64,000 nt of DNA from Paramecium tetraurelia (Eukaryota > Ciliophora > Oligohymenophorea > Peniculida > Parameciidae): positions 1 to 64,000 of the forward strand of contig NW_001799004.1 in NCBI RefSeq assembly GCF_000165425.1. The letters are read 5' to 3'. How positions within the stretch are numbered: position 1 is the first letter of the stretch; each line of letters opens with the position of its first letter. The notes under the pieces were generated by a model. It was not told where the DNA came from, made no database searches, and saw only the letters and a list, made by a program, of their open reading frames with translations. A program made the position numbers and the translations under genes. Shown piece by piece: positions 3,001 through 49,345 of the stretch.

Positions 3001-6000
3001 TATGAGTCTGATTTTGCAGCAAAAGAATCAGGCGTGCTCAAATCTTAATCATAAGTTTTAGTATCTCAAGTCCAATAATTAGAATAAATAAATAGTAAAA
3101 AATAATTGACATCAGATACCTATTGACTTTAATAAGAATAATAAAATATAGCTTGTACACCAAAGAGTAAAAATGATTCACAATAATATCGCTCACCTAC
3201 ATGACGTCAATTAGATAAATGAATAGTTGGCTTCACAAGTAGTTGTTCGCGCGAGTATCACTATTGTCCTAAAGAGATCATGAATATTGATTAAGATTGC
3301 CAGGTATTGAGGCAAGAGGCAACAACCCTTTGACATTAGTAACCAACAGCATTAATTTGAGACAAAGAGTTTATTGTAAGTGCTTTGATAGTAACATATA
3401 CCACTTCATTCACTTCCAGTCTTGTGCAGAAGTAATATGAGGTTATATAATATATTCTTGACATAGCTTACAAGTATTTTGAATTACATAAAGACATCTT
3501 GATGTCTTACATGCAGCGCAAATAATAAAAACATTGAGTTCCTTATGTCGCATTAACATCTAATGCACAAAGAAGAAAAAGTTGAAATAATCACAATCAG
3601 CAATAGGGGAGATATATATGGAGTTTACATTCAAATAGTTGGCAGATCTTCAGCAAGTATATGCCAGCATATTTATTACAGGTTGCAAACAAATGATTCT
3701 AGTAAATATACTTCGTTGTAACTCAATTATGCATTGTTTCATTCATGCAAGAAAAGAAACCTTTACATAAAGATGAGAAGTAGTAGCCACTTATGCTTGA
3801 TATGCATTGATAGAGCTTTCAATTCATTTCCATAAACATTAAATTATAAAGGAGAGATACGTTTAGGATTATCTAAGAGATATTAAGAGCACTTGATAAA
3901 CTACAATCAATTTCTAGAGTTGTACTCAAGAAAGAGCCAAGGTCTATAGGTATTTAAGTTATGTGGAAAAATTCCATTATATAAGTGATTAACTTATAAT
4001 ATTTCTGGGACTTGAATTCGAATTAGAGTTAGAAGTTACACAAACTTCACTGTTATATAAGCATTTCAGTAAAGATTGTAATTTGGTTAACCTGATTATA
4101 TGCGATATACAAGCTTTACACTGAAAGGTTAAACAAGTAAGCAACAATAAGGGTATTATATCCAGAAATAAGCAAGAATTGGTAGAAATGAATGATGCTA
4201 AATTTAAATGACATAATGCAATGATTAATTGCTTATTTTACAACAGTACAAAGTTTGGTGGGGTATATAAAAAATAATGCTATATTCATAATATAAATGG
4301 TTAATGGGTCTATAATAGGTATTAGATTAATATTGCGTCGCAAAGAGATCTTGAACATTATGATCGGAAGACATTCCAAAAAAATGCAGCCTATCAACGT
4401 AGAACCCAGCAATAAAATTATGAGATAAAACTCTGTAAAGGAAGAATCTGGTTCTTAATACAAGTAGAAAAAAATTGTAACCTGACTTTAAGCAGAGCAT
4501 ATCACAATTACCATGACAACAACAATAAATCCTTATTTGTTTTCATATTGTGGAGTTATTATTGCAATTTTAGACACAATTAATTGAGTTCAAGAGAGTG
4601 GTGCAAGTTAGTTGTACTAACCGAATATGAAGATATTTTTATTGAAACTGAAAAACAGAAGAGATCAGTAGTCAATTGAATTAGGTAAAATATGCGTTTC
4701 CAACTTATAAAACTACAAGGTGAATCCTTTTATAATTTAATAAAACAAAGGAAACTTTGTGTGTACAGTTCTCACAAATGATTGTGGCTCAAGGGTAATA
4801 TCATGGCTTCATAGTAATCATAAGAGATTCTGATCATTTTAAGATATTCTACAATGAAGGTAGATAGTGAACAAATAAGTTTACAATGTCAGTTATCCAG
4901 ATGATTTCAGTGACACAGGGCTTAAATTTGCATTTATTTAGAAAGCACATGTTAGGCAATGCTATTATTTATCTGCTATAAAGTATGATAGGATGAACTC
5001 CATATATTATTATTGGGCTAAACATGCAGCTAGAATATCCAATAACATGCCCTAAGTTATTCTCATAAGAAGAGCATTTAGTGAAAGTATGTATACATAA
5101 ATAGCATGCGTCACAATCTAAATGGCTCGAGAGAAATCTTTGGTTACCCTTATCAATAATATTGATTTAAATATTATGATTATTATCTAGGTTGAAAGAT
5201 TTTAGTTTTACATCAAATTACATAAAGTCTATAAATCTAACATTCTTCTTATCTTCATAAATTCAATTTTATTTAATGGTTGGGTTAGAAAATATATCTT
5301 AAATAGATTTTGCAGTTTAACAAATTTCAAATAGTGAACCTAGAGAGGTATAAAGAACTGCATGGTGTATAATCTTTAGATAATACATCTGATTATATCA
5401 AGCAAATGTCAAGAATGCTAGAGAATATATTGTAAGGATAGATATTTAAGATTGTTAGGACGGTTAATGTATCCATCAAAACAATCTTTAGTAAGTCATC
5501 AACATAGGTAAGGCCATACAAAGTTCTTAAAAATTGCTATGATATAGAATTAGAGTCATCATTTAAAGTTAAATAACTTTGCAGGACTTTTATTAAAATG
5601 TTGTTTGTATGAGGAATTGCATCAATGGCACAAAAATATGATCACTATGATTTGAGAAAGCAACAATGCCAACCTGTATTTGAATTATGTGAACAGAATA
5701 TAGGCTCAAATTTATTTAGGAATAATTTCTAAATATCTTTGAAAGGTACAGATGGTATACAAATTAAAAAATCCTTGAAGAAACTCACATTATTAATCGA
5801 AACCGATATTTGTGCTTAACATATAGAATAATCACAAGATGAGAACTCAACAACACATAATATTATAACTTTGTAACTCCTTATAAGAAGAATTTCAAAA
5901 AGGATTGTGGATGTTTTAGAGGTTTAATAAATCGTCCTTGCTTCAAGGATTATATAGATCTCACAAATAATTTTCAGACATACAAAATGGGTAGAGGTTT

Positions 6001-8260
6001 ATCTGTTTTGGAAATTAGTAGATGCCTAATCAATGTTGTGCATTTCATAGGATAAAAAATTCAATTACTATAGTGACATTTAGTTGTTTTAAGCGCAGAT
6101 ATCGCACAGAATGTAACGTTCGACATTTATTGTTTGGATATCATTTCAGGTGATGGACAGTGAACTACAAGATTTGAAATTGATATTATAAAAGTTGCAT
6201 CCGGCTGAAAATAAGAAGCTGAGTCCAAGGATTATTTTTAAAAGCCTTAAATGCAATAAGTGTAGACATGTGAATTCCAACAAGGTAACCCTGCTTTTGG
6301 CCATTAAATGCGAACATGGCTGTTATTGTGTTGCAGAAGGGCAAATAAAGGTTTGAAAATACTTTATACAAGCAAGACAATGACACTCGTTAGAGGTATT
6401 CTTAAAAGATTCAGAAGAATTTAAAACAGGCAAGTATTTTACCTGATGTTAATTTTTTAGAAATTATAATTTAGGTTGTGGTCATATTTTAATAATTAAT
6501 TCGCGAATTGTTGTATAAGTTAGAACAATTAGTAATGATTCAAGAAAAATTACATTTGGAGCACCATTTGATGAAGAATCATTCAACATAATCATTGGCA
6601 TATAATTCATCAGAGGCAATTCTAATAAATATCACCAAACACAACTATAAAATCTTAAATTGGTTTTCGCATACTGTTGTGCCTTTGTAGATTTCATTTA
6701 TCATACTTTGTCCATCTTCATATACTCATATTTTGATTGATATCGCTACTTCTAAATTAAATAATGAATATTGTGACTGTGTCTAAATTCAACAAACTTT
6801 TTCAGAATGTTACATAATTGGTAGTTGACCCAATTAATTTTATGTATAAAGATTTTATCGAACAATAAAGCTATCCTCAAAATAAGAAAAAAATGAAAAA
6901 GTTGAATAGAGCATTATACATACAATTTATAAGGAATAATTCTACATAAGCGGCATTATTTACCATTTTAAAAATGGTAGCTAAAGAGCAAACCCTAATA
7001 CTGATTATCTGACATTCAGTAGTCTTATCTGGCTTAGGTTTGAAAAAGCCCAAATAATTGCTGCTATCTAGCTATAAGCTAAGTTTTTGAGAAGCTTCTA
7101 ATTTTACTCAAGTATTTTCTGCATCCAAAACTAATAAGACATCAGTCAACTTTTTTCCTTGTGCTCTGCTTCACCTAATCTAGTGCTACATGTTAATGTT
7201 ATTATCAAGTGACATGCAATTTATTAGAAACAATTTTGGCAGTGTTAAACATTGTGTTTTAGCTATTGCATAATCAATACACTGCCTACTATTACAGAAA
7301 TAGCATTAATTTGCCCAATTTTTCTATTCTGTTTGCCCATGAACTTTTTCTGAGATCTAGCAGTTGTTCCACTTTTGATGAGTGATTCTATCTTTATTTT
7401 GCTGTAACAATTCTGTCAGACTTGTTTTGACTGCAGCTAATTTTAAGTGCTGCCTCTATCCATGTTATACGATCAAATTACAGAAATGACCTGTTAAGCA
7501 GCGCAAAACAATGCATAACTATATGTTTTTATGATAAACAAAATTTTTCTCAAAAACCTCAAAAGTAATATTTAATGCCCAGTATCGCTACTCTCATTAG
7601 AACAAAATATTTAGTCTCTGATTTTTGTATACTTGAGGATATACTTTAGATTCCAATAGTGCAGTCAAATTACAACATATTGCATGACATTTGTATGCAA
7701 TAATGGAAGAAGTGAGTAATTTATATCATCTTATTCTATTGGTTGAGGTATCCCACATGTAGAAATAGCGTTGCCTATCCTACTAATATTATTATACATG
7801 TTTATCTTGCAATATCTTTTAGTTGCATGTAGAATAAATGCAATATATGTTGTTTTAGTTTCTCTCCTGATTTTATGATAATATCAGCACATTAAATTAA
7901 ATTAGCAAAACATGTATTACTTCAGAAATTTAGTGAATGCTCTAATTGTATTCTAAGCATTAAACTAGTACAACAAGTATTGAAGTTGCCTATCACGTGT
8001 CCAATTTACTTCGTTAATATACGTCAAGTTGTAATTTTGATACACGCCATCTGTTACAAGCTGAGTAGTTATTCTAAGTATTTTTCTAATAACAAATGTT
8101 TGCTAATCCTGTATTTAAGGATGTTAACCTGAAAAATGATGAATATAATCATTGAAATGATTTGCTTTCAAAGTAGCCTATATTACAATACTGTGTACTG
8201 TTGCCTCTTTTCATAAAGCCCATAAAATAGATAATGTAACACGTTAGACTAACCGAAGGC
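1..8260. other. Gene-poor region, coding-like composition without a supported gene
   Basis: Base composition (roughly 30% GC by eye) is closer to Paramecium coding DNA than to its very AT-rich spacers, yet TGA and its reverse complement occur about equally often and no frame stays open with a convincing protein. The longest TGA-free runs on the plus strand (about 1357-2034, 2190-2575 and 2572-3120) are no longer than expected by chance when TGA is the only stop, and their Asp+Glu content is low (about 6%). A run at about 853-1165 is richer in acidic residues and is the best candidate for a coding relic. No reverse transcriptase, transposase or other motif was recognised. Confidence 0.5.
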
Positions 8261-8469
8261 TTGATAGAAAAAACCCACAAACAATAACCATCATAAATAA
8301 ACTCCGCAAATCTGGGTTTCTGTTACTTTGATTATATCCACATTTTAATAACCATCCTCTCCATCCTCTGGGTATCTAGCGTATTTAAACATAGAAAATT
8401 ATTAATTATCGCAATAATATCCTAATCCTGAGAAATATGCAAATTCCAAATTGAAGACTGAGGAATAGA

Positions 8470-9501
8470 TCAGACTACCCTTTATAATGAAGATACTTTG
8501 GACAGTACAGAGGCCTAATGGCCTTAATTAATTGCTTACCACATGATGGAGAGTTAAAAATATTAGATCACCCACTCCCACACGATCCTTAACTTACTTA
8601 TATGGTTTCCTTTTCCATGTTGGACTACCATTGTCTAGCACCTTAATATTTTAATCATTATATTTTTACTCCAGATAAAATCACTTAAAAATTATCGAGT
8701 ATCTGTTGTACTTAGGTTCATTTTCAGAGGATTCCCATAGACTCCTTCATCATAATTAATATAAAAAGCATATCTCTCCTGCATCTCTTATGTATATTAT
8801 TTAATTAGGCTTAACTCAAAGTCATTGGTTACATTAAAAATTTTAATCTCCAATATTGAACTTTGCAAGGTTTAATATTTACTTCTGTTCGTTAGGTAGC
8901 CTTAAAAATAAGTAAATTTCCTATCTAACATAATTATTTTATCTTGATCACTCAATCTAACTTAATTTCCAGAATATTTCATATTCTTTTATTCTTCTAG
9001 TGACTTAACGATATCTTCTTTGGCTAGAATTATCTATTATAATTCATTAATATCCGCCTCCTTACTTTCAAATTGAATTTCATTCACAAAATCCTTAAGT
9101 TTATTTCTTTCCTCCTTCTACTCCTGGTTCTTCTTGAGTTCATTATTCTCTTTTTAAGTTCCCTCACCTTTAGGCAAAAAGTTTATTCTCTTTATGTATT
9201 CAGGATATTACCTGCTATAGTTGTGGTTTGGAGCAGGTTTTATATAAAAGGGGGAGAGTTAACTATTTCGATTTATTTTTTGTTCTTAATATTATCTCTA
9301 TTAGGGGATTTCTGTCTCAATGATTTTATTCTAAACAAAAATAACATTTATTTGGGTTTCCTTTTTAGCTTTAAAGCACAATTTAGTTTCTCCTTTGTTT
9401 AAGAGTATATCTTCCAAAGTATCCATCACCACCTATTATTAATTATCTTACTCATAAGTTTAGATTGGTTATTTTTTATAGTTAAGTTGTACTATGCTCA
9501 T
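8470..9501 (-). CDS. Coiled-coil protein of unknown function, possibly damaged 3' end
   Basis: With TAA/TAG as Gln, a frame stays open for about 280 codons from the ATG at 9501 (protein start MSIVQLNYKK) and is rich in Glu, Lys, Gln and Asn, unlike its surroundings. The middle, roughly residues 110-175, is a strong coiled-coil candidate (KENNELKKNQEQKEERNKL, then repeated E/K heptads). Near 8654-8670 the frame must shift, by an unrecognised intron or an indel, to continue into a segment reading VLDNGSPTW and DRVGVGDLIF. A 25-nt GTAAG...TTAG intron at 8515-8539 is likely, giving a TGA at 8470; without it the frame would run to 8291. No family was recognised. The nearby plus-strand hydrophobic ORF is its antisense shadow. 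It could be a gene in decay. Confidence 0.5.
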
Positions 9502-12500
9502 TAAAGGATTTTCACAAAAGTGGCCTTAATTCTCATTTTTAGATGAAGAGAAATTCTGTTCTGTATGAAACTTATCTCAAGTATTGGTTGATCAATAAGA
9601 TGGAATGTTCTCCATGCTAAATATATTTTTAAATTCTATTGATAATTGTTACTAGCAAAAAATTCATAAAAACAATAAATACTTACCCTAAAGTTTATTT
9701 AAAATTGGTATTAGGGCAATAGTTCTTGCATCAAAAAGAATAGAGGCTATTTAGTTTTGGAGGTGTGAAATCTAATGATTGTAGCGATGTTACAGTTGAA
9801 AAAGAAGAAAGAAATAGTTATCTCAGCTTGATTAGGAATAAATATATATAACTAATCTTAATTGAAATTGTTGGGCTAAAATGCATATGCTCAATTTACT
9901 ACTATTAAACAAAGGTATTATCAACATAATCAAGCCAAATAATGAAGATAATTCTGATCTGTAATTTATTGGCCCAGAGAAAGAGGCCTTTTAACAATGG
10001 AACTTGTCATATTGAGGTGTATATTGTTTTTGAAATTTTCTGGTGTCATAATTCCACTCTAGAGGTGGGAAGAAACCGATTATGTACTATTAATATATAT
10101 TTGGTACGGCTGGTATTCTCACACCATAGGTTCTTAATTTTATGAATTGACTTCTTTGTGAGTTTGAATATGGTTACAGCTCATTTTTATTCTGGAAATC
10201 AAAATCAATTTAGAGGCTCTGGTTGTAGAAGTCAGATTTATGCTACTTTATAATCTAGCAATTTGCTCTTATTCAAGCAAACTTATGTTCGCTGCTAAAG
10301 TATTATATATTCGGATTGCGGAAGTATGTGATTAGATTCCATGAGGATTTCATGCTTGAATTTAATTTTGTATTACTAATGTGAAATAGGTCGTCAATTT
10401 AGAAGTTAGAATGTAAGGAAGTTGAGAAAAGTTAGATTAGATTTTATATGGTTACTATTTTGTATAACTTCAGTTTGATGATTGTTAAAAGTATTTTTTA
10501 ATAATGTATTGGTCAAAGAAGATAATATTCTGCTTGGATAGCTATCCAGGCTCACTTCTCTTATTGAATGAACGAATCTTTTATCTGAGATTTTGAAAAA
10601 TCTTATATAAAATGCGATTCAGTCCAGAGATGCTATTTTAGCTTAACACTAATTGCGAATTTTAAATGAGCGCTACAAGAGGAATGCTTATTCAAATTTC
10701 TGGAGCTGCCTGCTATCATTTATCATCAAGACCTCTGCATATATGTATCTAGGTTATGCAAAATCAAATGCTCTAATTAGGCAAATACTTTATTAGAGAA
10801 CTTGAGTTTTAATACTCCAAAACGGTGCTTAGTCTTAGTCCTTACACCAAAGGTAATAGTGTTGATAGTAATTGAAAAGTCTGCGAGAATGGGGACAATC
10901 ATATGAAAAGTTTCAAACAAAAGTATTTAATATTTGTCATTCTTTTGAGAATTCCTCCACAATATAAGACTAGAGCAATTTTAATGAATAATTTCCAACA
11001 TCTTTATAGTCACTTTTTGAAAGAAGAATTTCAAGTATTAAAATTGAGGAAACCTTCACTCCACCAATTTGTCGGTCTGTATATAGCTAGCTATTCTTAA
11101 TTAATTTGACCAAAATTGCCTCGATTAAGAATATAAAAAGCCAAACTATAAAAATTGGATCAGAAACGCAAATTTACAATTCATAGATTAAAATCATGTA
11201 ATTACTTTTTTAAAGCCATTATGCAATATTTTCACTAAAGACAATCGTTACAAGTCTGTGATTGCATTTCTGTTTGATGATATCCAAAAGGCAATACTAT
11301 AATCAGCTATAATTGACATAAACAATACGAGGATAAGGTGCAACGAACATTTTAGATCTGATGTCTGATAGAACCTGCAACATTTATTAAAATTAGAAAC
11401 ATTTAATTCAGCTGCACTTACAATCAGCGGAATATTAGGGAGGTTGTTGAATAATTATACAGAAATTTTGCAAACTATAAGGAAGCAATTAAAAATTTTT
11501 AAAAGAAGCATCGAGTTTTGTGTTAGACAAAGTGGTATCCTAGATTATATAGTTTCAAACTCAATAAGCAAGAAAAAGTGTCAGTGTAAAATATTGAAAA
11601 ATGGCTTAGCGCTCTTATTAATAACACATACAAGTGTGGCTCAAGTATCGTTCTACTTAGTAATATTTTATTCACATTCCTACAAAAAAATAACAATTTA
11701 CCTTGAAACAACATGCAGGAAAGATAAATTTTAGAAGTAAGACCAAACACCAACTACTTCAATTTAATTGTAATCAACATCCCATTATCCGTAGTCTCAA
11801 CAAATGCATCCAACTTCAAATTTAGAGAAGAAACTCTTTGTAAACTAAGTATGCAATCTAAAACGCTTCTCAATCACTATGGCAAATATATGAGCGCATA
11901 ATTAGGATTTAACAATTAACACATTTAATGGCGAAAAAAATTTTATATTCATAAATTCCTTATGATTTGGGCTTCAAGTATGTTTTCAACATTAGGCGCT
12001 AGAAGTGCTTTAAGTGGATTAATAAACTTTGCAATTCCCACTAGAGTAAGTGAGGGCATTACAAACTATAGTTCCTAGAAATGCACTTGCACCAGAAACA
12101 TTGTAAAATTACATACTCTCTGAAATAGCCACTAAATTATCGGGTTAAGGGCTAAAATCTTAAAAATGTTAGCAAAAAGCTGTAAATCAATAATATTTAT
12201 GTTTAGGAGCATGTCTGTTGATCATAACTTCGAGATTCGCAATAGAAATATGTAGTGCTAATATTAGATAAACGAAAAATAGTTCAAGGTTTTCTAAAGC
12301 AGCAGAAGTTGAGTGCATAACTTTCAAAACATTTGAAACTTGAAAGATTAAAGGTAGAATAAAGAGGTTTAAATAAGAAGCCAAAGTTTACTTATTTTTT
12401 GGAAACTTCTTGAGGTCAGAAATGCTAGCATAAAGTAAACGTCCACAAACTCTACAATAGATGGTATTTAAATTAAGGATAGAAAGGAATTGATTTATTA

Positions 12501-14578
12501 CATAACATAATTTAAGAACCAGCAACTTACATGGGTGAGATTTAATAGAAAAGCGAATTAAGCAAAAAAGATAATATCTTAATCGAGCAAAGTGGAAGGA
12601 AGATTGCCACTCACTCAGACCCAGTAACATAATGTTAATAGTAGAATGCACCCAGCACAGCTAAAGGAATTAATTTTACCTTAAGAACTATAAAATTTTC
12701 CCTTCAGAAGAACCAATAGCATCAGTATTTACAGTACCAATACCAAAGACAAAGCTACTATATTCTATTTTGGTATACTTTGTTGTTTATCCTTGAAATT
12801 AAAATAAATAGTAGCGGTTGTAGAATTGCTCAAGTGTTGATTGAATGTTGACGAACGCTATGCTCTGAATTTAACCTCTAGAGTATAATGTACAAGTAGG
12901 AGCTTTTAGGCTAAATTCTTAATGGTAGTAGGAAGGCACGTAAAATACAACCAATAGTTAGGTTAGCATAGCTACTCCACTTTTTGAAGATTTAAATGAT
13001 GTTGACTAAAAGAAATAGCTAGAAATACATTAAGGACATGGCTATAATAAACTAAAATGCTGAATCACACTCATAATAAAAACTGAGATGCACAAGGGTT
13101 TTTATTATGTCCTAAGAAATAGAACGACTTAATAATCGTTGCTAAACATTCTACAACTGTGATGGCAGGTATGGCATAGGATGGAGCAAAAAAAATCACA
13201 ACATAAACCAAATAACAATTCAGTGTTGAAGTATTTAAATACTAATGAGAATTTTATATACAAAAGTGATTTATTACTAGTATAGGATATTCAAAAACAA
13301 CATTACAAGATGTCAATTAACAAGTATCACAGATAGATACTTGGGACAACCAAGAGTTGAATTTGTTTACAATTTTGCGACCCCGTTATCAAAAACCATA
13401 TCCACAATCAGCATGATTAGCTTGCTAATTGCAAACATTATCATAATTAGCATCATGTTTGTCATTTAAGCATTGAAAGAAAACTGTTGTTATAATAACA
13501 ATATAAAGGTTTATTGTTACGATTATTAAAGTTCAGTAGACAATCTTTTAATAGCCTATCAAAGCTTATTTGGAATTAGCAAAACATTATTATATATAAT
13601 AATTTACTCAAGTTCCCCATCTTATGCAGGTCATCTAATTCGGTATCATAATTTCAATAAAGGAACCTTTCATATTTACTTGCAGCTTAAGATTTCCGAG
13701 ATGCACATATTGTTGAAGGATTAAAAACAAGTAGAAATTTTTTTGTTGCTTAACTAAATACTCACAAATATTAGTTCAGCCGCAACTAAATATCAGAACC
13801 TTCACAAGTGATGCAGTTTAGAATTGAAGGCAATATGGATTGCGATGTGTTTGTTTAAAAGAGTTATATAGATTGCATTTATTTATCTCCATCAGTATGG
13901 TATTTAGAGCATAAGTTGGGTATTGAAAAATAAGAAATCAAAGTAATGAACTCACTTGCCTGCTTATTTTAAACAGTTAAAACTTTTTAGGAATGCTTAA
14001 AAAATAGTGCAATATACATAATATTAATGAATGATCGGTCCACAAGAGATATTAGCTTGTAAGTTTTTATAAATTAATAATTTTTTTATGTAAATAATCA
14101 TATTCTAGTCTTTTACATTTAATTATACCGTTGCAATTTAATCATTTATATGATTTAGTCTTGCTATTAAAAACTAATGGTTGAGATGGGAGCCTCCATG
14201 TGGGGCAGTGAATTAACTGGGACTCTTGTTACATGAATCAAAAAAGGATGTGTAAACTATTACCTATTATTCGAGCAAGCTTCTTAATTACAATAGGCAA
14301 TTTTTTTTGTGATGTTACTAATAATCAAGATTCAAAATTCCTGTATTTTCAGTTGGTATATTTTTATATCCTACATATTATAAACATATAAGTTATTTTG
14401 AAAATTCCGTGCAATTACTTCTATTCAATAATTACATATAAGTCACAAAAATAGTATTAGGCAGCAGCAATAAGGGCAAAAAGTACATGTAATAGATCAG
14501 AAGTTTGCAACAAATTTGGGATTAACTACATAATAATTGCTTGCTAAACGTGGATAAGTAGTTTTAAATCCTCAAAAC
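9502..14578. other. Gene-poor region, no supported gene
   Basis: Five kilobases of moderately AT-rich sequence without a convincing gene. The longest protein-like run is on the plus strand at about 11369-11908 (180 codons without TGA; it includes LLNNYTEILQTIRKQL), but it turns into low-complexity Ser/Thr/Gln sequence and has no recognised motif. Runs of this length are expected by chance with a single stop codon. Short minus-strand runs near 11523-11753 and 12187-12651 are equally unconvincing. Confidence 0.45.
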
Positions 14579-14908
14579 ATGATGTCAAAAGACATCAATC
14601 AAAGTTTGAACATGATTGATATGCCAATAAAAGATCAATATGTAAACGAAGAATAACAACTATATGCTTCTGCAGAGTCACAAAACCCTTAATCCTTAGT
14701 TGATTCACAGTATGGAGTCAGGATTGTAGTTTTAGACACAATTTTTCATCCATTTCCAAAGAAGGAAAAATCGAGGTCAAGATTTCTCGCAAGTGTTGCC
14801 ACCAGTATTAATTTGCGCTAGCAAATATATCAGCTGTTAATTAAATCAGGTAAAATATATGTCTATATGAAAATGATATTTGGGAATCCTTAAATTATAT
14901 TACTGTGA
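14579..14908 (+). CDS. Small telomere-proximal ORF, possible 5' gene fragment
   Basis: An ATG at 14579 opens a 109-residue frame ending at TGA 14906-14908. The first 90 residues look genuine: acidic/Gln-rich start (IDMPIKDQYVNEEQQ), then a conserved-looking stretch GVRIVVLDTIFHPFPKKEKS, with base composition above the flanking AT-rich DNA. From about residue 91 the composition becomes that of the noncoding flank, so this may be the 5' end of a longer gene cut off before the telomere 1.5 kb downstream. No family was recognised and no short intron restores a longer frame. Confidence 0.35.
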
Positions 14909-16431
14909 TTTTAATTATTTCTATTTCCTATACTCTTTTTAGCGTCAATAAATAAGAAATATTATAGTATCATGTTCTGACTTTAATAGTTATTAATTTT
15001 CTTAATAATAGTATTTCTAATATTACTTCAAGTTTTAGTAATTTTAATTTACTGTGATTAGATCTCAATTAAGGAGTTTTAATCAATTTTGCCAATCTCA
15101 GGATTATCGAACTTTAATGTTCGAATCCTTTTTAATTTTCTCATTAGTACAAAAGGCGTGTCCTAGGCCTTAAAGAATTGCTGTATAAGAAAATTAAGCA
15201 CCCATTCATAATTCAACTTTTTAATCTTAATAAGTGATAAATGCAAATAACCTTCCCTCAATACAATCATAAATTGATAATTAACTCATTTACTTAATAT
15301 TTGAAAAGAGAAGCAGAAAATCAATTTCCTTCTTTAAAATCAAAAATAATTAATTAAATCTGTCTTATTCGTTTCTCATACTAAAGAGATTACCTAAAAA
15401 GTAATTTGAGATTAGATGGTGTTTCAGGATTAAATAATTTTACATATCATATCGTCTTAATATGCTTCGAATCAAGAAATGAGATTCTAGTTATAATAAA
15501 TAAGAGCTCTTAATAGAAAAACTTAAATCGAACATTTAATAAGAGCTATTTGTAAAAAGAATGAAGGAGAGAATTAGTTGATTTCGATTCATTTACATAT
15601 AATAACTTGTATCAGGAGCAAATATATACCATCTGAAACCAATAATGCGTTTTAATATATCAAGATAGAAAGGCCAGTCATTGATTTGGATGAAATTATG
15701 TCTGATTCTAATATCTTTCTTTACCTCAAAGATAAGATGAATATAAATGTAGAAGAGGTTTAAAGCAATATAATTTAGCTGTTTCAAAAAACTCAAGTAC
15801 TCCAGAAAATAGCTTAAGAGAAGAAATTACTCCATATCTAACAGGACTAAGGAATATTATACTCTTTTTGGGATGTAATATACATAAAATGACATATCTT
15901 GGAGTATAGAAAGCCCCTCCCAGAATTGCAATATTGGTGTGTCACTGCTCTTAAGTTTGTGGGATATTATAATTTTAATTGTAATATTTTCCATTAGAAA
16001 GTAAATATTTCCTTGTATGATTACTTGTTTTGCAAAATATCCATTAAAAATGTAATCCTTAAATTTATTTTTACTGTAAAATTAATATTATTTGCATTAA
16101 ATTTTATATTCATACAAAAGAATGTTTTTATATACAATAAAAGAGTTAAATATCAATCTATTACTCTTCACTTATTTTAACCTATTTCATTTTAAGATTC
16201 AATTTTTAAAAAAGCAAAATATCAACTTCAGATTCTCTATTGAATCATAACAACTATCTTATTTCTCTGTTTTTTAAATTTATTTACTCTTGGGAATTAA
16301 TATAATAAATTAAAATATTTCTGTAATATGCTATAAAAGTATTTCAATTAAGCCTTTGCAGAACCATGAAAAATGTAAATGAAAATATTTGTGAAGATCA
16401 ATGTTGTTGGAAATAACAGAGTTACTTGTTA
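14909..16431. other. AT-rich subtelomeric DNA
   Basis: Very AT-rich spacer with homopolymer runs and no TGA-free frame of protein-like composition. A hairpin at 15101-15128 is listed separately. It runs directly into the telomere tract. Confidence 0.6.
15101..15128. repeat. Imperfect hairpin, 10-bp arms
   Basis: The left arm GGATT-AT-CGAAC pairs with the right arm GTTCGAATCC around a 6-nt loop, with a 2-nt bulge in the left arm. The right arm resembles a tRNA T-arm/B box, but no acceptor stem, D arm or anticodon arm can be built around it, so it is annotated only as an inverted repeat. Confidence 0.5.
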
Positions 16432-16517
16432 GGGTTTGGGTTTGGGGTTGGGGTTGGGGTTGGGGTTGGGTTTGGGTTTGGGTTTGGGTTTGGGTTTGGG
16501 TTTGGGGTTGGGTTTGG
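16432..16517 (+). repeat. Telomeric repeat tract, GGGGTT/GGGTTT mixture
   Basis: About 86 bp of uninterrupted hexamers mixing GGGTTT and GGGGTT, the mixture typical of Paramecium telomeres. The G-rich strand reads 5' to 3' toward higher coordinates, so this is a chromosome end capping the DNA on its left. Four GGGGTT units are clustered and are followed by a run of GGGTTT. The junction with unique sequence is at about 16431 (GTTA|GGGTTT). The tract is internal to the scaffold only because another contig was joined beyond it. Confidence 0.95.
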
Positions 16518-16547
16518 ACTCGTCGGCTGAATGACAGATCACAGCTC
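16518..16547. other. Short GC-rich non-telomeric tail after the telomere
   Basis: Thirty bases (ACTCGTCGGCTGAATGACAG then ATCACAGCTC) follow the last telomeric hexamer and stop at the gap. GC content is about 50%, far above anything nearby, and the sequence looks like neither telomere nor Paramecium DNA. A leftover adapter, primer or vector end from telomere cloning or sequencing is the simplest reading. I did not recognise a particular vector. Confidence 0.5.
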
Positions 16548-16697
16548 NNNNNNNNNNNNNNNNNNNNNNNNNNNNNNNNNNNNNNNNNNNNNNNNNNNNN
16601 NNNNNNNNNNNNNNNNNNNNNNNNNNNNNNNNNNNNNNNNNNNNNNNNNNNNNNNNNNNNNNNNNNNNNNNNNNNNNNNNNNNNNNNNNNNNNNNNN
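16548..16697. other. Assembly gap, 150 N
   Basis: Exactly 150 undetermined bases, the same size as the second gap, so the length is probably a placeholder. The left flank is a telomere and the right flank is not, so adjacency of the two sides in the cell is doubtful. Confidence 0.95.
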
Positions 16698-19600
16698 ATC
16701 TCATGGTTCTATTTAGAATCATAATTATCAATGCTCTTTTCTATTCTTCTTAGACCAGTTTTATAAATTAATTATTTAAGATATTCTTAAATGTGACTAT
16801 TGGCAATGAGACAGCTTTCTTAATTGGTCTACCTATACAATTAGGCCACCTTTCAAATAATGTTTAGACTAATTCTTACTTTCAATTATTAAATTGTAAC
16901 TAATAAAAAGTTCTAATATTAATTTTTAACACTCAATTAATTAAAACTCAAAATCAAGAAATTTTACTAATACGGTAATTTATTATTATCGATGAGACTT
17001 GATATTCAATTATTTTTCAAATTCAACTCGACCCTCTATAATCTTGTAAAAAAATCGCAACCATGTGTCTCAAGGTAATGAACACAAAATCAACGTGAAG
17101 TTTATATTATTTCTATTTCTTATATTTTCTTAGGTTCATCATAAAAAGGAATTCAATAGCAAGCCTAAGTTCAAAATATTATCCTTTTCAACTTTACTTG
17201 ACTATATCATATACACTCTTGATAGTCGATTTTATACTATTCTTAACAGACCCCATTTCTAATTTATAGAAATGTAATAGGTGTTAAAGTGGACAATAGG
17301 GTTTTCGACTGATCTTTATTATTTATATAATTCATCTATGCATTTCATATTATGTTAATGCAACTTTTTATCCTACCAGTTTAGCGCAGTTGATTATGAA
17401 CTCCATGCATCTTATTGCTTTCCCTTTTAGTAATTCCAAGTAATGATAAGAATACTATGAAGTTTAGGATTTCAATATCTTAAAATAGAGAGTAATTTTA
17501 CTTCAAGATCGCAGTATCGATTCAATAACCTTAGTAATGAATTACCTGCTAGCATTTTTTGCAAACTTATTAACATCATTTTTTTTTATTCAATTTGCTC
17601 ATATCATTAACTCTTTAATCTATGATTACTCAATTAATGTATTTAGACTAACTATTTATTAAGGAAGAAACTTTAGCATTCAAAAAAGAGTTAGTTCGCA
17701 ATTTTTCATAAAAAACATAACTGTCTTAATTTTAATTCATTTTAATAAGAGATATTGATATATCATTAATAAGAGTTTTTAACTCGTTTAGGCTCTTATA
17801 TGATTGAATATTAAATTTAGATATCTGCGTGCGAATAAATGAATTAATATTGAATCAAGGCTTTACTTTTTCAATTATTGTAAGATTAACTCAATGATTC
17901 TGATGAATCTACTCCAATTGAGTAATATACTTATTAAGAAATTTAGATCCCCTAGATCAATCAGCATGCTTGATCCTATTCTCATTCACCTTTCGAAGTT
18001 GGAAACACATATCCTTTTATCAAAAATTTCTGAAAAGTTTAACACCTAGTTCTAATTTTCTTAAGAGCTAATTTTGCTTTTTTATGAATATTGTCTTTCT
18101 AATTCTGTATCTTAGGAGTATTTGCTGTATTTAATGATCAATTTATTGCATAATTATAATTAAAGTAAGAAACTACCTATTAAACCCTTTTATCTTTAAT
18201 TTTTCTAATAAAAATTACAAACAACTTAACTCAAGCTACTTCCTTGTATATCAATAAGCGTTGGTTTGGTTAAGGTTCCAGCTCCAAAAAATTGATCTCT
18301 ATCAGCCTCAGATTAAAATTCATAAAATTAAATCTGAATGACAAAAGCCAGGTTTTACTGATTTGCAACTCAAACATTTATTGTCCTTCCAATGATAAGA
18401 AAATAAGATTCAATTAAGCAAGTCTCCATAGTTGTCTAAAGGATCCTAATCTATGCAGCCCAAAGCTGTACTTTATTTACAATGGTAAAATCTAGGGCCA
18501 TTTATAGTTTCTTTCGCCCATAAACAACTTGTCCATCCAGTATCTTTGCAGCCTCCGATCATACTTGTACATTATAATTCTTTTCTGTACTTACATCTTA
18601 ATCCTGTTAACTAACATATATCTCTCATCGATATCCTCAAATTTGGTAAATTCTTAATATTTCCTATCTTAAACAACAAAAAGCCCTTCTCTTCCATGCA
18701 AACATGAAGATAATAGTTACTCAGAGCATTTTAAAAGTTTAGATTTATCTTTATAATTCTTAAGTTCATAGTCATAATAACAGCCAGGAAGATACTCTAT
18801 TAAAAAAACTACAATAGATAACTTGTTCATAAATGAACAACTTTTAAATTGACCCCACTTTTTTTCTTTTTGTCCCAAATACATCCACTTGCAATCCAAA
18901 AACTTATTTCTGATTAAACCTCAAAACAAGAAAGTGATATACATTTTCTACCATACTATTAGTTTAGCAACCTCATTAAATTATGAGTGAAAGCTTTTTT
19001 TTTAGCTAAGGTTTAGTGAATTTAAGATCTCCATTTCCAATTTTGATTAGCTAATGGCTAAACTTAATAGCATGATAAGATTGAAGATAATAATTATCAA
19101 AATATAAAAAAAATTTTTGCATTACTGTCTTCCAATATTAGGGTTTCTTCTATATCAAACTTTACTTTTATTAGGTTCTCTCACAAGGAAAATGTATTCA
19201 ACAAAAGTGATTGAAAAATCGTGTGCGAATAGATGAGAGTGTGTAATGAAATCTACATTAGAATAACATGAGGCGATTATTTATTCCAGTTTCTCCTAAA
19301 CAGTTGATGCAATTAAAGTGAAAGTTGCTTATTATCAGAAGGTTAATGATAAAAAAAGCAAGGATTGAATGATATTTTTTGAAGTTTGCCCTAGTTTCCT
19401 CCATCAGTTTAAGCGTTTGCCTAATTATTACTAACTTCTTAAAGGAAATCCATAGTTGAAAGTAATGTAAACACTTAAAATTAATAATTTTAACCCTACA
19501 ATAAAGAAATAATAATTTTAACTAATTCCTTTAGAGATAATTTACAAATTTAGCTTGTGAAGATTTACTTCATCATACATTGAAGGTATTAGTACTAAAA

Positions 19601-20415
19601 TCTGTCTGAATCTCCTTCTAAATAAATGAATTTATTTTTTCGAATTTTATTAAAATCCCTCATTATAAAGTTGTAATTGCAACATCTAGGAGTACATTTA
19701 TTAAATATTTATCTAATATAAATAAATATTTTAATGACTTTGATAATTTTGTTGTTAATTGCGAATTGAAGATAATCCATATTTAGTTGAACCTTATCTA
19801 ATTATATTAGTGAATCATTAATTTTCCAATCGATATAATTTCATTCTTTAAATGATATTAAAAGAAAAATTCAAAAAATAATGAACATAGAAAGCGATTT
19901 ACTCCATATGAATGAGACAGAACGAAAACATGATTATTTGAAAATTGAATATTAAAAACTTAATATTTGCTTATATTGATTTAAGAAAGCTAGAATTCGA
20001 TAATCAAATTAATTTAAAGATTATTTTATGCATCATTCCATTTGCAATTTTAATTGCAAATGCCAATCTCCTTGTCTTTGACAGTAGGTACTAATCTAGG
20101 TCTAACCTTACTAATAGGCATGTTCTGATTCTTGGCCCAATCAAATAATAGCAAGTTTGTTGTTTATATTTTTTTTTCAAAACACCAACATTTTTCACTA
20201 TTAATCACTTTCTTTAAAGTCAAAGGAGTTTCTCATGCCCTTCAAGCCATTCCAAAATCAATTTATTACAGGGATTGCTTTATTAATTAAAATATTTATA
20301 CAACTCATTAATTAGATAATTAGATATGAAATAATGGTGAGAATAGAGATATATAAGGAAATTATAATTAGTTTAATAATTAATAATAAATTCAAATTTT
20401 GTTTATTGGAAATTG
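16698..20415. other. AT-rich gene-poor DNA with one possible relic
   Basis: Mostly very AT-rich spacer. The only stretch with coding-like composition is about 18250-18960 on the minus strand. There a frame rich in Asp, Glu, Lys and Arg (for example KFEDIDERYMLVNRI) runs for about 100 codons, then loses character. Another frame over the same DNA contains several Cys. No start, motif or splice pattern gives a full gene, so a decayed gene is possible but not shown. Confidence 0.4.
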
Positions 20416-21151
20416 ATGCCTGGAGTTTCATTCATAAAAGTTCTATTTTTATATCCAATCTTCTATTATCAAAACTGCATGGATGCTCAAAGTGGTGATT
20501 GTTTTAATAATGATTGGTCAAATTAGGTAGCAGAGTGTGCAGGTATTTTATTTAAAGGTCGATTTTGCTGTGAGGATCAAATATCATTACAAATCAATAA
20601 TATAGTAGGGCTCAAGTTTCGTTTTGGCTTCACAATTGTAAAAATCGATAGTTGGGATCCAGGTGTTGATAATATAAAAGTCATAGCAGAGGATGAAGTT
20701 CTAGATACTTTATCTTTCGGCCCTTATGAAGGAACTTCTATGTGTTTCAATACTGATTATTAAGATTTGTTCGCTTCGTATTCTTATATGTTTAATCTAC
20801 CATAAGGAAAGAACTCCTTGAAAATAACTTTAAAAGGTTACTTTAATGAAAAAGTAGAGAATGGTATTATAATTTCTAAAATTAGAGTCTTGGGGGGCTA
20901 AGAGATTCACTTTAGAAATGTTCATTCCTTGTGTAGAATTTTATAGTGAATGTAATTTTTAAGGATAGGCGTGGAGAATCTGTAATGGATATCAAACAAG
21001 CTAAGTTAGAGATATTCCTTTCGAAATTAAATCAATCATAATCGCAAATGGAATATAAGTCAAAATGAGAAATCCAAAGTACAATAGTGGTCAAACTTAA
21101 ACATTCACGTCAAGTTAATAATGTTTATCAAGCTATTAAGTATATCTTTGA
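20416..21151 (+). CDS. Secreted/surface protein with beta/gamma-crystallin-like domain
   Basis: The spliced product is 237 residues. ATG at 20416 begins a hydrophobic leader (VSFIKVLFLYPIFYY), suggesting a signal peptide. One 22-nt intron, GTATT...ATTAG at 20864-20885, restores the frame across an apparent TAA/TGA-ending alternative. Residues about 45-155 form a beta-rich region with the motif VKIDSWDPG, like the jelly-roll modules seen in many secreted ciliate proteins. Residues about 170-230 contain FYSECNFQG, which fits the crystallin Greek-key pattern Y/F-x4-F-x-G, followed by IPFEIKSIIIANGIQV, as in beta/gamma-crystallin folds. The family assignment rests on motif memory, not a search. 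It is an island of intact coding DNA in a decayed region. Confidence 0.7.
20864..20885 (+). other. 22-nt intron in the crystallin-like gene
   Basis: GTATT donor and TTAG acceptor. Removing it joins AAT-G to AG-TCT and keeps a single frame to the TGA at 21151 (714 nt spliced, 238 codons). Without it the protein would end at 20949, before the crystallin-like motif. Confidence 0.75.
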
Positions 21152-22131
21152 TGTAAATCTTAGTTTCCTAAATATAATCAAAACGGTTGAAAAGAATTAA
21201 AAATATATATAATTTTATATATTAACAATTAATTAAAGTTTATTTATAGTGAATTTTATATATAGCACAGATATTTAAGTAATTAATTGGGTGCTAGTAT
21301 ATTTTCACTTCATTTATATTAAATTAATTTAAGATATAAGTATAATTGCAGAGAGATAAGTAATCCTACTTATCAATGATACTAGTTTGTTTAAAGATAA
21401 ATGGAATAACATTAATTTTACAGCATTCATTTTTTATATTAGTAATAAATAGCCTCTATTACGTATTTTAAATTGCATTTTAAACTCAACTTTTTATTAA
21501 TGAAGACAGATCAAAGCCGAAATTATTGAAGTAGGTGGCTCACTAGGATTGATTTTAATATTCTTTCGTTACTTCATTTAGATAATTAGAATTAATATTT
21601 CAATCAAGCAGCAATAGCATTGTCTTCCTTTTTCAGATCTCGGAAGATAATGCAATTGGGAAAGTTGTAAATCATTCAGTTTGAACCCATTGATTTAGAT
21701 AACTCCAGAATTAAGCCTTTATTTACATTGATGATCACAATAAATTTTATTCATTTATTTGATTATTTTATTTATTATTTAAATATATAAACCCAGTCTT
21801 AACAAATTTTTCATCAAATCGTTTCCAAACTGGAATTATAACTGCAAATCCTATTAGACCATTTATCATCATTAAAACTTACTTTCTCATAGAAAAATAT
21901 TGAAGATGAAGATTTTGATGAAAAAATTAAACATCTCATGATCAAATCCATTAAGAACATGTGTCATTAAATTAAAAACTCAAAATAAATGCACATTAAC
22001 ATTTAAGAATAGAATAGATCAATAGATTTATTTATGACAAAAAGACAAACAACAAGTAAAGATATTCTATGAAAAGTAAAATTAATTAATCAGGCTTGTG
22101 CCTTGTAGCTCAATTATTATTATGTTAAATA
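21152..22131. other. AT-rich intergenic spacer
   Basis: No protein-like frame on either strand; long A/T runs. Nothing else is recognisable. Confidence 0.6.
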
Positions 22132-22650
22132 TTGCAAGAGAGGATTTCCGGTATAATCTATAATCTTCAAAGAAGGAGTTATCAAAAGTCTAAATTTAAA
22201 ACGAAATGGAAAACTACCCAAGGATTTCCCCGTAGATTAAAGAAAACGGAATTTCAAGGATTGTTTATTTCAGTTGCTGACAAATATCTTGCAGAAAAAA
22301 TTGTTTTATTCCTTCGATAAGTGTTCAAATGATATAAAGAACTTATAGTAGGTTTAGAAGTGTTGAAAAATGATATAATATTAAAATATTGAAGAATTAT
22401 TTGTTTAAACCTTAAGTAAAGCTTTTCGATTTGTGTGATGAAGATGGCTTTGGTAAAGTAACTGAAATAGAACTCTTTAACACTTTGAAGTAAAATATCA
22501 TCAATCAAAATGATAAATACTAACTAAAAATGGTCATAAGAAATGAGCAAATAAGTTGATTTAAGATGGAGATGGAGAATTAACTAAAGAAGAAATCTTA
22601 TAAGCTGCCAGCAAAAGTGCAATTCTTTGGTGACTGCTGGGAAAAACATA
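22132..22650 (+). pseudogene. Decayed EF-hand calcium-binding protein gene
   Basis: Pieces of an EF-hand protein lie in order but in different frames. DKYLAEKIV is followed by FDKCSNDI and ELIVGLEVLKND (helix-loop remnants), then KLFDLCDEDGFGKVTEIELF, an EF-hand with a D-x-D-x-F loop start. Last comes DGDGELTKEEILQAAS, an EF loop whose first Asp is out of frame because of one extra A near 22563. A 23-nt intron ending in AAG could rejoin the last piece but would put Ile at loop position 1. The layout resembles NCS/calcineurin-B-type proteins of about 190 residues. At least three frame breaks make a functional product unlikely. Confidence 0.55.
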
Positions 22651-23736
22651 GATGCAATCATTTATATGATTTAGAAGAACCATTTCACCAATTTGTATGT
22701 ACACAACAAATAAATTCACTTTATCATCTTAGCTAATTTAAACTAATAAAAAGAAGGCATATATTTTGCAACTTAATAAAAATGAATTGATGCTTTAGAG
22801 GAAATTGATTTATTAAATTTTTTAGGTCAGAATCAGGTTCCATTTTGGATCTATAATAAAATTATTCTACAAAGTTAAAAGCCCTGTAGAATAAATAATT
22901 TATAATTAATAGAGAAAAGCAAAATAGATAAGTTCTAATGTAGATAATTGATGAATATAAATTGTGCATTAGATTTAATTAAACAGCTATCAGATAAAAT
23001 TCCATTTATTATAAAAATTTATGAAGGATTAAAATTCTGAATAGAACTCTGATCAATTAGTTCAAATAAACAATGCTTATGTACTTAAATCAAGCGTTGT
23101 CTATTTTAAAAGAGATATGTTATATTAATATTATTGGCTATGGTGGAATTATGCAATACAGCAGTTTATGCTACTCGTAATCCTATAGCAGTGGATTTAA
23201 AAACTGGATAATTTAATAAGCTAAGTAGCATCTTGGGGAAGAGCCTCCTGCTCTTTCTTCTACTTTTTATTTATTCATGCATCCATTATTTATATTTTCT
23301 GCTAGCTACTTAATTATTTGCCAGTGAAGTAGCATTTTAGTAAAAAATAGGCTCTGTTTTGACTTTACTAGGAGTCTAGTAAAGGTATTTAGTTAGATAA
23401 TCATAAGAATATAGAAATAAATGTAGTTTCATTTAAGTACTAATTGGCAAGGTATTGAGTTGAATAAGCACTACCTTAATTCTGAATGCTCAATTTCAGT
23501 TTCTGTAGAATGCTCTCTAATCAATCAGAGAATGAAATTAATTATTATGTTGAAATTCATAGTCACATTTAGTGGAATATTGAGATTCATTATCCCTAGA
23601 ACTCGCTTATTCTAATTTCCTAAATTTTTGTAATATTTTTCAAAAGGCTTTGTTACGATGTTTATTAACTTAAAACCTTGCAATTTTTCTCCTAGCCTTT
23701 TCCATCCTTTTTAAAATAAAATGAGTATTTGGTGAT
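22651..23736. other. Coding-like debris, no supported gene
   Basis: A plus-strand frame at about 22797-23040 (EEIDLLNFLGQNQVPFWIYN, then further hydrophobic/Lys-rich sequence) stays open for 81 codons between TGAs and could be a gene fragment. There is no start codon in context and no motif. The rest is AT-rich, with a near inverted repeat TAAGTAGC...GCTACTTA around 23219-23315. Confidence 0.35.
23363..23384. repeat. Perfect 9-bp inverted repeat
   Basis: CTTTACTAG - GAGT - CTAGTAAAG: perfect 9-bp arms around a 4-nt loop. It is not followed by a T run and there is no neighbouring gene whose end it would mark. Function unknown. Confidence 0.6.
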
Positions 23737-24420
23737 TCAGGATATTATCTTTTTTTTACCAATGTACTTTTGTATTCTCCATAACTTTTGAGTACATTCT
23801 AATTATTGCTAAATGGAAAAACTGAATAAATATCTAAATTTTATCAAATCGAGAAAATCTTTAAGGAGTGGTTGGTAAGTAGTTTGTTTATCAATTGTGG
23901 AATTCATGTTCTGATTGCCTTCTGTAGATTCTTAAATTTATTTTGTGTTTGTTTTAGTTGTTGAGTGTTTCTTCCCAGCTTCTCTTTTCATATTAATATT
24001 GTCTTATTATTAGTTTATATTTTAATTTCAGAATGCAACTTATCAATAAAAGAAATTCTTTTGAAGATGTCTTATTATGATCTATTTTTAGTAAGTATTT
24101 CTTCAGATGATTCTTTTCTCAAGAAGTCTTTTCAAAACTGAAAGTAATATAATCTGGCCTTTCTCTTCTGATGAAGATTCTTCAGAATTTGGTTATTCTG
24201 TTTTCAAATCTTTAGTAAATTCAAACTTTTAGTTTTCCCTTAAACTAGCACTTCAGAATCCTGCTTTCTATACTGTTCCTTTTGGATTGACTACCTTTTT
24301 TTTTATAATTTTCATTCATCATCTTCCTCATCGCCTACTTGATTAGGCTTTTGACTAATTTTATTCAAAGTTCTTGAATTAGTCGTTTATTCCTTGTTAA
24401 GGTATAATGCTTAAATGATT
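23737..24420 (-). pseudogene. Low-complexity Ser/Glu/Lys protein gene, probably decayed
   Basis: On the minus strand a piece reading EFTKDLKTEQPNSEESSSEE is preceded by a plausible 27-nt intron (GTAGTC...GTATAG near 24258-24284). It is followed, in another frame, by an 85-codon ORF starting at 23991 (MKREAGKKHSTTKTN, later FLDLIKFRYLF) and ending at 23737. The acidic and Lys-rich composition suggests former coding, but the pieces do not join into one frame with recognisable introns. No family was recognised. The plus-strand reading is Ser/Phe-rich and is a shadow. Confidence 0.3.
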
Positions 24421-27400
24421 TATATCAATAAATTAATTTCAACTAAGAACAATAATTTATTTTGATATTTTTGATTCCTATATGGGAGTGTTAAAAAATT
24501 GAAGTGATTTTTATCCACTAGATAACTAAATTGCAAAGTTAACTTAGATGTGACATAGAATGTTTCTTTTATATATTAGAAAATTTAGAATGTCTCCCAG
24601 ATTTGTTTTCTAAGATCTATAAACTGTAGTTTAGCATAAATCATTTATGATTTATGGCAAGACTTTTCATAAATGATTTTAATTGTAGCTAATGAATTAT
24701 TATGAAAAATATGAAATCTCAAATAAGTTGGTCAAGTACAACATTGAGGCTATTAACTGTTCTACCTTATCATGTTAATTACATAAACACGTATGATGAG
24801 TTGGTGATATTCATTATAGATAACATGACTGAATTTAGTTGATTATAATTATTACAATTGATATTTATACTGAGGATGCCAGGTTCGTGAACCTTATCAT
24901 TGATTGTATCAATTTAATTACTAATTAAATCTTACTACAATCTGGCTCCTATGATGCGTAGGCAACTTCTTATTAGCTCCGGTTATACCAGCTATTCAAT
25001 TGCTTTTATTTCTAAATTTGAAATCTATTGATGAAGGTAAGGATAATTATAGAACTCATGTTTGTTTTTAGTGTATATTTTCATTTCATTCCTGTTATAC
25101 TCATCATAGTCCCCAACTACAATCATCTTTCAATTATGAGGTGGTTAAGGTTATTAAAGATTCAATATTGCATAGATTTTATTGAGTGGATCATACTTGC
25201 AAAAAACATAAATCTTTGATGAGAAGTTAATGATAATCATTGTTGGTGACATAACTTTAAGTATTCTGCTTATTATAATCAGACATCAATGATGAGGGGA
25301 TATCCTCATTTATGGCATTTATTATTTTAAAGCAATTATTCTCTACACTTTTACATACTTAATTTAGCATTCTATCATAAAGGAACATATTTTTCTGGGA
25401 TTAATATTAAAGCTGACAAGCTATCATAAATCAATATGTAAAAATATTGAATGTGGTGCTTGTTGACCTTGTACATTAATGATAATATGTAACTCTATCC
25501 AATAGTTACATTAGATAATTTTATATTACATAGTTTTTATTCTATGAAAAAAAATCGTTAGGAGATAAAAAATAGCAAATTGTTACTGATGCCTGGTAAG
25601 CTGTGAAACCACCAAAAAATTTAGGAATTATGCGCACTGTTGGGCGCAAGAAGGATTAAAACAGGATTCTAATAGCTATTATAACACGTAATGTTTGAAT
25701 TCAGTATGAAGCATGTAAGAAACGAGCTTAACGTTAAGAATATAGTATTGAACGGTTATTGAAAGGGCAAATTGTGCATGAAATTTGAACATCACATATA
25801 ATGCAAGGCGATAGACATTAAAACAAGCAGTGCTAGATCCTAAGAAACTCACTCTTATTCATTCTGCTTAAGTATAATAGCATTAATTAGCAAGGGTAAT
25901 ACACTCCTGAAAGGGAATATCAACATACCCAGTTTTACATAGAAACTAGTTAGAAGAAATGCTATAGAATATATTTTTTGATAAGAATTATCCATCCATA
26001 CCACCCAAATTTATATGTGCATAACTCTAGCATTTAAGAGATGAGTTTATACATTCTAAGCATTTAATCATCTCCAGAGAAAGATGCAGCCATCAAAACA
26101 TGATTTACATCACTAGGATCAGCTTAACACTGTTTTGCAAGGAGTCAGCCCATTGTAGATAACAGGTTACAAATGAAATGTTTAATTTAAAATGATCAAC
26201 ACTAAGAAACAGTGTCTACACAAGTCATGTAGGTAATAAAAAATTAATATAGTATTTAGAATGAATCATGCTTATCTTCATCAATACCAGTATGACATTT
26301 AACGCAAGATTAATTCTAAAAAGGAAAATATAGGGCTGGAGGGTAAATTCATCTGAAAGAACTATGCAAACATTTAAACTGTGGGATACTAATCTATAGA
26401 TTATTCATGAATTTTATTATTTAGGAAGTGTCAATCAGTTGAACAAGAGTACAGTTAGGGCATGGTTCAGCACATCTATCAAAAACTTCAACAATTTTTG
26501 AAAGTAAACATCAATAAGAATGGACATCAAGCTTGTATTTATTGATATTTAGATTGATGGTAATAAAGTAGTTAACAGATACTATATGTGTCAGATTTGG
26601 TAACAAAGCAGCGCATGCAATCTAATATGAATATAGGAGTTGTGCAAATTAAAGATATTTTACACCACCCACAATTTTATAAACAAGGTTGGTGTTAAGA
26701 TTTACCCCTATTACAAATTCACCTGGGGATAGTGTATTTGTAGCATATTACTAATTCTTTAAGAGATATATTGCAATTTTCATAATAGCCATTTGAGCTT
26801 TGCATTTAGTTTATGTTAAACTAAATATTTGGAGTATTCATTATCCTTTTAATCTTTCTTATACAGCTCTACATGTTAACCAAGATGAGATTTGACCATT
26901 AAAATAATTTCAACTACTATCTGCTTAGTTGTAAATGTTGTTGATGATTATGAAATTGGCAACATGTTTTAGTAAAATATATAGATTAACTATCAAAGAT
27001 CGTTTGCGATTATCTACCCTATCGTCAAATTTGACATAATCATTGCAAACACCTTATGTAAAGCATCCATCGCTATAATGGTTACAAATAGCTTAGCTTG
27101 AACAAGTTAAAATTCTAAGCATATCTGGTACATAACATTCATTTAGATGGAATCAAAATTTTGAATATACTCAGTTATGAGAGGATTGGAGGGGATTGTA
27201 TAATTATTACCATCTTTGAAATTTTGATTAAACACATTCATAAAGGCAAAGAGATAAGTTCTAGAACTATCCACCAAACTAAAACTTAAGAGAGTCTCTT
27301 ATCAAGTTGTATCTAAAAGCCATCCTTTACTGAATTTATCTTATATTCATTGTGCAAAATCAAAGACACATAGACAGCATGCTTCTAACAACGATTCCAT

Positions 27401-28318: not shown

Positions 28319-28693
28319 TTTTAAAAAGACTCAAGGCAAAGCAGATTCTATGAATTACACTCAATTAAGCTATAACAGTGTTTTATACCTTTCAACTTCT
28401 ATAATTCATATTCTTAATACAAATTTAATAGTTCTGATTAGACTACAGGAAGATGATGAATCAAAATCCTTTAAGTATTAAGCAAATGCTTATCATTGGA
28501 TTTAAACTCTTTTAAGCTCATCTGGCATTGCTTGATAACTCTCTTCAGGTCCTTAAGATTATTATTAATAAAAGTAGAGTTCTGCGCAAGTAAATTTAGA
28601 GTAGTTTGCAATATCATCCTATTCTATATTCTCTTCTTAATCACATTTACCAATTAAAAATCTTTAAAATTAAATTGAATTAGATCAAAATAA
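28319..28693. repeat. 375-bp direct repeat, copy 1
   Basis: Matches 30567-30941 base for base by eye, except one C/T difference at 28686/30934. The offset is 2,248 bp. Both copies carry the 3' end of a minus-strand reading frame (stop at 28493-28495; end MPDELKRVQIQ) and about 170 bp beyond it. In this copy the single difference creates a TGA that closes the frame upstream. Confidence 0.9.
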
Positions 28694-47740: not shown

Positions 47741-47759
47741 TAATAACTTTATCAAATAG

Positions 47760-49345
<1,586 letters not shown>

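Follow-up and report, generated by a model that had tools for sequence, protein, structure and literature searches.

An inward-facing telomere near one end of a Paramecium tetraurelia scaffold: a possible variable macronuclear chromosome end

Why does a Paramecium telomere lie 16.4 kb inside a scaffold and point toward a gap, on the far side of which the scaffold goes on? The window analysed here is a stretch of 64,000 nucleotides at the left end of a Paramecium tetraurelia scaffold. This scaffold is called C51 below, and other C-numbers denote other scaffolds of the same assembly, which we take to be the Sanger P. tetraurelia one, in keeping with its size of 69 Mb. The following features of the window enter the argument.

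1..16431, no strand: left (outer) contig, gene-poor and subtelomere-type, with the telomere at its right end (open reading frame shuffles, paralogues)
16432..16516, plus strand: Paramecium-type telomere repeat tract of 14 GGGTTT/GGGGTT units (exact-unit count, TRF, shuffles)
16517..16547, no strand: 31-base non-telomeric tail, 17/31 G+C, one copy in the genome
16548..16697, no strand: 150-N gap and contig break (N run)
16698..30416, no strand: middle contig, gene-poor, with diverged paralogues (open reading frame shuffles, paralogues)
28319..28693, plus strand: first copy of a repeated block (375 bp, 99.7%), the branch point of two assembled versions
30417..30566, no strand: second 150-N gap (N run)
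30567..30941, plus strand: the block again, opening the contig to the right of the second gap and continuing toward the surface antigen gene
32824..39647, minus strand: subtelomeric Paramecium surface antigen gene (PF01508; ORF 32824-38856 plus ORF 38640-39647)

The repeat tract itself leaves little room for doubt. A pattern search of the window counts 14 exact units from 16432 (nine GGGTTT and five GGGGTT), and their G strand points right, toward the end of the capped piece. Such a tandem mixture of GGGGTT and GGGTTT is given as the Paramecium telomere repeat in the available part of PMC7599177. TRF assigns the tract to 16428-16517, and thus the point of telomere addition is exact only to a few bases. 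When up to two mismatches are allowed, a 24-letter telomere motif gives 11 overlapping matches in the window, all within the tract, and none in 100 shuffles of the window. The pattern search finds no further tract of at least two telomere units elsewhere in the 64 kb. These counts bear out the first-pass annotation in its reading of a true, rightward-pointing Paramecium telomere. That annotation extended the telomere to 16697, but the repeat occupies only 16432-16516, and the rest is the 31-base tail and the 150 N. The tract thus stands at a contig end and is most likely a real macronuclear (somatic) chromosome end that was captured there, as far as sequence can tell.

What is the short tail that separates the repeat from the gap? 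Its G+C content is 17/31 compared with 28% for the window (binomial chance 0.0018), and of the 30,089 windows of this length in the first 30 kb, 38 are equally G+C-rich. The tail occurs once in the 69.07-Mb genome with up to three mismatches allowed. The telomere tracts that end C3, C35 and C64 carry unrelated tails of 48-53 bases with 48-62% G+C; the tails of the C50 and C28 tracts are shorter, and many other tips have tails of a few bases. An adapter or vector source is rejected because the tails differ between scaffolds and share no adapter. No match was obtained when six pieces of the tail were searched in papers and a 27-base piece in viral contigs, or when E. coli genomes were searched. 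Plasmid comparisons returned six records at chance level for the tail (E 7) and one match for the C3 tail (E 1). The tail is most likely the low-quality end of a read past the repeat, and the tails on C3, C35, C64, C50 and C28 would have the same origin.

The tail and the N run, together with the similar tails at telomeric contigs of other scaffolds, indicate that a contig ends here. Runs of exactly 150 N are found at 16548-16697, at 30417-30566 and once in C28 (the C174 gap has at least 441 N), and this recurrence in three gaps makes 150 look like an arbitrary gap size. The earlier statement that the scaffold continues past the telomere therefore holds only across the N run, as the telomere and 16698 are not connected by sequenced DNA. 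Sequences of separate DNA molecules were probably put together by the assembler, with an artificial gap between them. The piece that the telomere caps is the left or outer one (1 to ~16431) and not the scaffold body. Because the telomere faces inward, it is not the end of a shortened C51 body, and the left contig is instead the end of a germline-adjacent neighbour, a tip contig placed in the wrong orientation or the product of a false join.

Inward-facing telomeres recur elsewhere in the assembly. Two pattern searches, for which about 100 of 231 and about 100 of 121 matches were listed, reach C120 and C190, and beyond C120 only tracts of at least about six exact units are counted. Reversed-pattern controls gave 51 and 45 matches in the first search and 13 and 15 in the second; these are taken to be the same telomere tracts because GGGTTT runs also fit the reversed pattern. 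Among the matches listed, there are 28 telomere tracts on 27 scaffolds: 20 lie at scaffold tips and point outward, three lie behind a leading N run (C40, C101 and C120), and four face an internal N gap (two on C28 and one each on C51 and C174). The gap-facing tracts are 16.4 kb (C51), 16.7 kb (C174) and ~21 kb (C28) from the tip. Among the matches listed, all three of these scaffolds have an outer piece whose telomere sits at its inner end, and C28 has a telomere on its inner piece too.

Several further observations concern these scaffolds. On C28, two telomeres stand head to head over a 150-N gap (252024-252516), with a 3.1-kb open frame in the inner 4.7 kb and none longer than 1.1 kb in the outer 4.7 kb. 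At the starts of C40, C101, C120, C214, C57 and C225 stand N runs of 1.7-5.2 kb, which may be sequence that was withheld, and three of these six have a telomere tract within ~20 bases after the N run. C1 carries the remaining one of the 28 tracts, a 48-base left-facing tract (C1:1214-1261) that differs from the gap-facing cases in having 1.2 kb of non-telomeric DNA outside it and no gap, which shows that a tract and the DNA outside it can form one unbroken sequence.

What kind of DNA lies on the two sides of the first gap? The longest stop-free frame (code 6) is reached by 32 of 100 shuffles in 1-16431 and by 72 of 100 in 16698-30416; for 30567-40900 and 41000-64000, it is reached by none of 100 each. 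No open reading frame in 1-30416 exceeds chance. Pfam yields nothing convincing in the first 30 kb, as judged from nine open reading frames and from six-frame scans of 1-14851 and 19100-29001; transposon or gene content is rejected on this basis. The single hits were also discarded: SPT16 in ORF 8473-9576 (E 0.0063) is below the cut-off and absent from the six-frame scan at E 0.01, and Crystall (E 0.0056) is below the cut-off. The minus-strand interval 8473-9576 is a long open frame, glutamine-rich by eye and perhaps a gene remnant. The scores of a codon model are not relied on because the surface antigen gene weighed too heavily in it, although the open reading frame list is kept; ordinary genes at 42-64 kb also score 0/20 or 0/18 windows.

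Both contigs have diverged relatives, many of them at scaffold tips. The left contig gives at least nine matches on at least eight other scaffolds at 67-80% identity, a lower bound drawn from nine first candidates, eight of them scored. All eight listed paralogues (C190, C225, C72, C198, C57, C22, C108 and C8) lie within ~12 kb of a tip, a zone that by arithmetic covers at most ~8% of the genome. The tip lies toward the window's left in six of the eight and toward its right in C198 and C57. The middle contig matches 10 listed scaffolds, of which six are less than 20 kb from a tip (C202, C214, C209, C25, C62 and C128) and four are not (C191, C36, C38 and C230). The nearer tip is on the left for C202, C209, C191, C38 and most of C214, on the right for C25, C36, C128 and C230, and on both sides for C62. 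C202 and C209 terminate no more than 0.2 kb from their outermost match. Paralogues of both contigs are 66-86% identical, with a single 53-bp exception at 94%.

With long queries, scores are given for the best candidates only, and even the self match was missed; short queries at the contig ends were therefore added. No scaffold is common to the hit lists of the left and middle contigs among the matches listed. C191, which holds the closest paralogue of the sequence that begins the right contig, has no window match in the 10 kb beyond it (C191:23300-33299). Synteny of both sides of the first gap on a third scaffold is therefore rejected as far as the listed matches go. A synteny search with the scaffold body (44000-63900) found its best pieces on C21, C174 and C40 and has no bearing on the gap. 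A query of 15000-16431 matches only itself in the assembly, indicating that the sequence up to 16431 was not also assembled there in an uncapped version.

The second gap adds a different kind of evidence. The intervals 28319-28693 and 30567-30941 share 99.7% identity over 375 bp: 367 identical bases (28319-28685 and 30567-30933) are followed by one mismatch, seven matching A/T positions and then divergence. The second copy starts exactly on the first base past the gap. One assembled version runs 1.7 kb on from the block to 30416, and the other enters the surface antigen side. This arrangement, a shared flank and then divergence, resembles that of an internal-deletion junction. In the simplest readings of the second gap, either the locus really exists in two versions, one of them internally deleted, or the left end of the contig derives from a chimeric clone; the former would fit imprecise elimination with rejoining. 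The putative alternative junction is separate from the first gap and adjoins the surface antigen gene. A reading of the first gap as a similar branch is rejected, as a search for a duplicated block there found none.

The surface antigen gene is the first gene from the scaffold's left tip, and it reads toward that tip. PF01508 matches 26 stretches of ORF 32824-38856 (E 1.6e-264), and ORF 38640-39647 has a signal-peptide-like start by eye. C51 has three further copies at ~176-182, 189-195 and 202-208 kb, 92-93% identical over the ~590 bp compared (at ~182, 195 and 202 kb), and thus carries four copies of the same family, one near the tip and three farther in. C179 and C10 have 84% identical relatives near their right ends. 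The C51 copies probably belong to the 51B family.

From these data, we propose, with about even confidence, that the locus is a variable macronuclear chromosome end, that the outer piece is a healed fragment and that the scaffold strings together contigs of different molecules. As the macronucleus develops, the germline DNA that separates MAC-destined segments would be eliminated imprecisely, and the broken ends would be healed by telomere addition at variable positions. Other copies would retain more DNA or have their flanks rejoined. The outer piece from 1 to ~16431 would be one such healed fragment, and contigs from different molecules of the variable end would have been strung together with arbitrary 150-N gaps. 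The pieces that flank the first gap would then be germline neighbours, some copies would read through ~16431, and the first 31 kb, by its sequence, looks like a variable subtelomere. Five observations speak against this proposal: 15000-16431 has no assembled uncapped version, the telomere faces inward, C191 has no left-contig match in the 10 kb beyond its paralogue of the right contig, no scaffold appears in both hit lists, and the tip lies to the left in six of eight left-contig paralogues whereas the telomere here is on the right. The first-pass annotation had offered either joined ends or an alternative fragmentation site. The join across a gap, the gene-poor subtelomere-type DNA and the alternative junction at the second gap agree with it, and the read-through copies that it suggested have no counterpart in the assembly; its two options also leave out a flipped terminal contig and the capping of the outer piece.

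Could the left contig be the true chromosome tip placed in the wrong orientation? In that case, base 1 would lie next to 16698 and the left tip would carry the telomere, as tips of other scaffolds do. We consider this unlikely but the strongest of the alternatives. It would account for the absence of a telomere at base 1 of C51, and the inner-side capping in all three listed gap-facing scaffolds is equally compatible with a flip and with healed neighbours. However, the leftward tips of six of the eight paralogues agree with the present orientation, a weak argument (two-sided sign test ~0.3), and no listed paralogue joins base-1-like to 16698-like sequence. Next in rank, and doubtful, is a false join, in which the left contig comes from the end of another, unrelated chromosome and was linked via chimeric clones or repeat-driven mate pairs. 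Diverged paralogues of both contigs, many of which lie at scaffold tips, would invite false links, and the two hit lists are without a common scaffold among the matches listed. Identities of 66-86%, the 53-bp piece at 94% apart, are nevertheless low for read misplacement, and assemblies usually require several links for a join.

We regard it as highly improbable that the outer piece (at least 16.4 kb, with its inner-side cap) persists in the macronucleus as a small non-coding molecule of its own, detached from the surface antigen chromosome at a recurrent break. If it did, C28 and C174, with their similar inward-capped pieces, would suggest a class of capped subtelomere fragments, perhaps comparable to the non-maintained chromosomes of Tetrahymena. 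A germline-encoded interstitial tract within a continuous chromosome is the least probable reading of all, very unlikely despite the tract's position inside the scaffold and the contiguous tract on C1, because 16432-16516 is followed by a junk tail and then by N, and junk tails also terminate the telomeric contigs found at scaffold tips.

If the locus is a variable chromosome end, it illustrates what an assembly that follows a single path makes of such ends in a polyploid somatic nucleus, namely inward telomeres at fixed-size gaps and, where versions branch, a duplicated block. Claims on synteny or gene position near the surface antigen gene are unsafe within the first 31 kb of the scaffold. 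Beyond assembly curation, the finding represents an ordinary and known phenomenon.

Variable chromosome ends, imprecise elimination and telomere healing are already known in Paramecium, and the first-pass annotation was right to point to heterogeneous ends of this origin: they are described in the available parts of PMC7599177, PMC8354472 and PMC4535620. As far as the text of PMC7599177 was available, imprecise elimination ends in telomere addition or rejoining, telomere sites vary within 1-2 kb, and the distance between alternative sites is 2-13 kb. The same choice between addition and rejoining was the subject of Amar 1994, Caron 1992 and Le Mouel 2003, as cited there; the second gap looks like the internal-deletion junctions of those studies, here known from an assembly and not from molecules. 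According to the available part of PMC9788069, published scaffolds are the longest forms. The MAC-variable regions of PMC8354472, in the portion available, lie at scaffold extremities and were defined with telomerisation sites. They share with our locus a scaffold end with internal telomere sites and would likewise be DNA present in part of the MAC copies, but they were delimited in four other species by read coverage, and ours is seen in the assembly alone. The C51 stretch begins at scaffold base 1, has no open reading frame above chance and contains one internal telomere addition site, at ~16431/16432, if the left contig is correctly placed. The C51 copies and their C179 and C10 relatives resemble the P. 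tetraurelia 51B isogene family with its relatives 51G and 51A, as presented in the part of PMC9788069 available. A close parallel is found in the P. tetraurelia surface antigen subtelomeres of PMC4535620 (section 3.9 and the Fig. 7 legend, the parts available), to whose scaffold 143, with 51B, C51 perhaps corresponds. There, as here, an internal telomere site lies near a subtelomeric surface antigen gene, and the marked internal sites are attributed to chromosome forms that differ in length through imprecise elimination.
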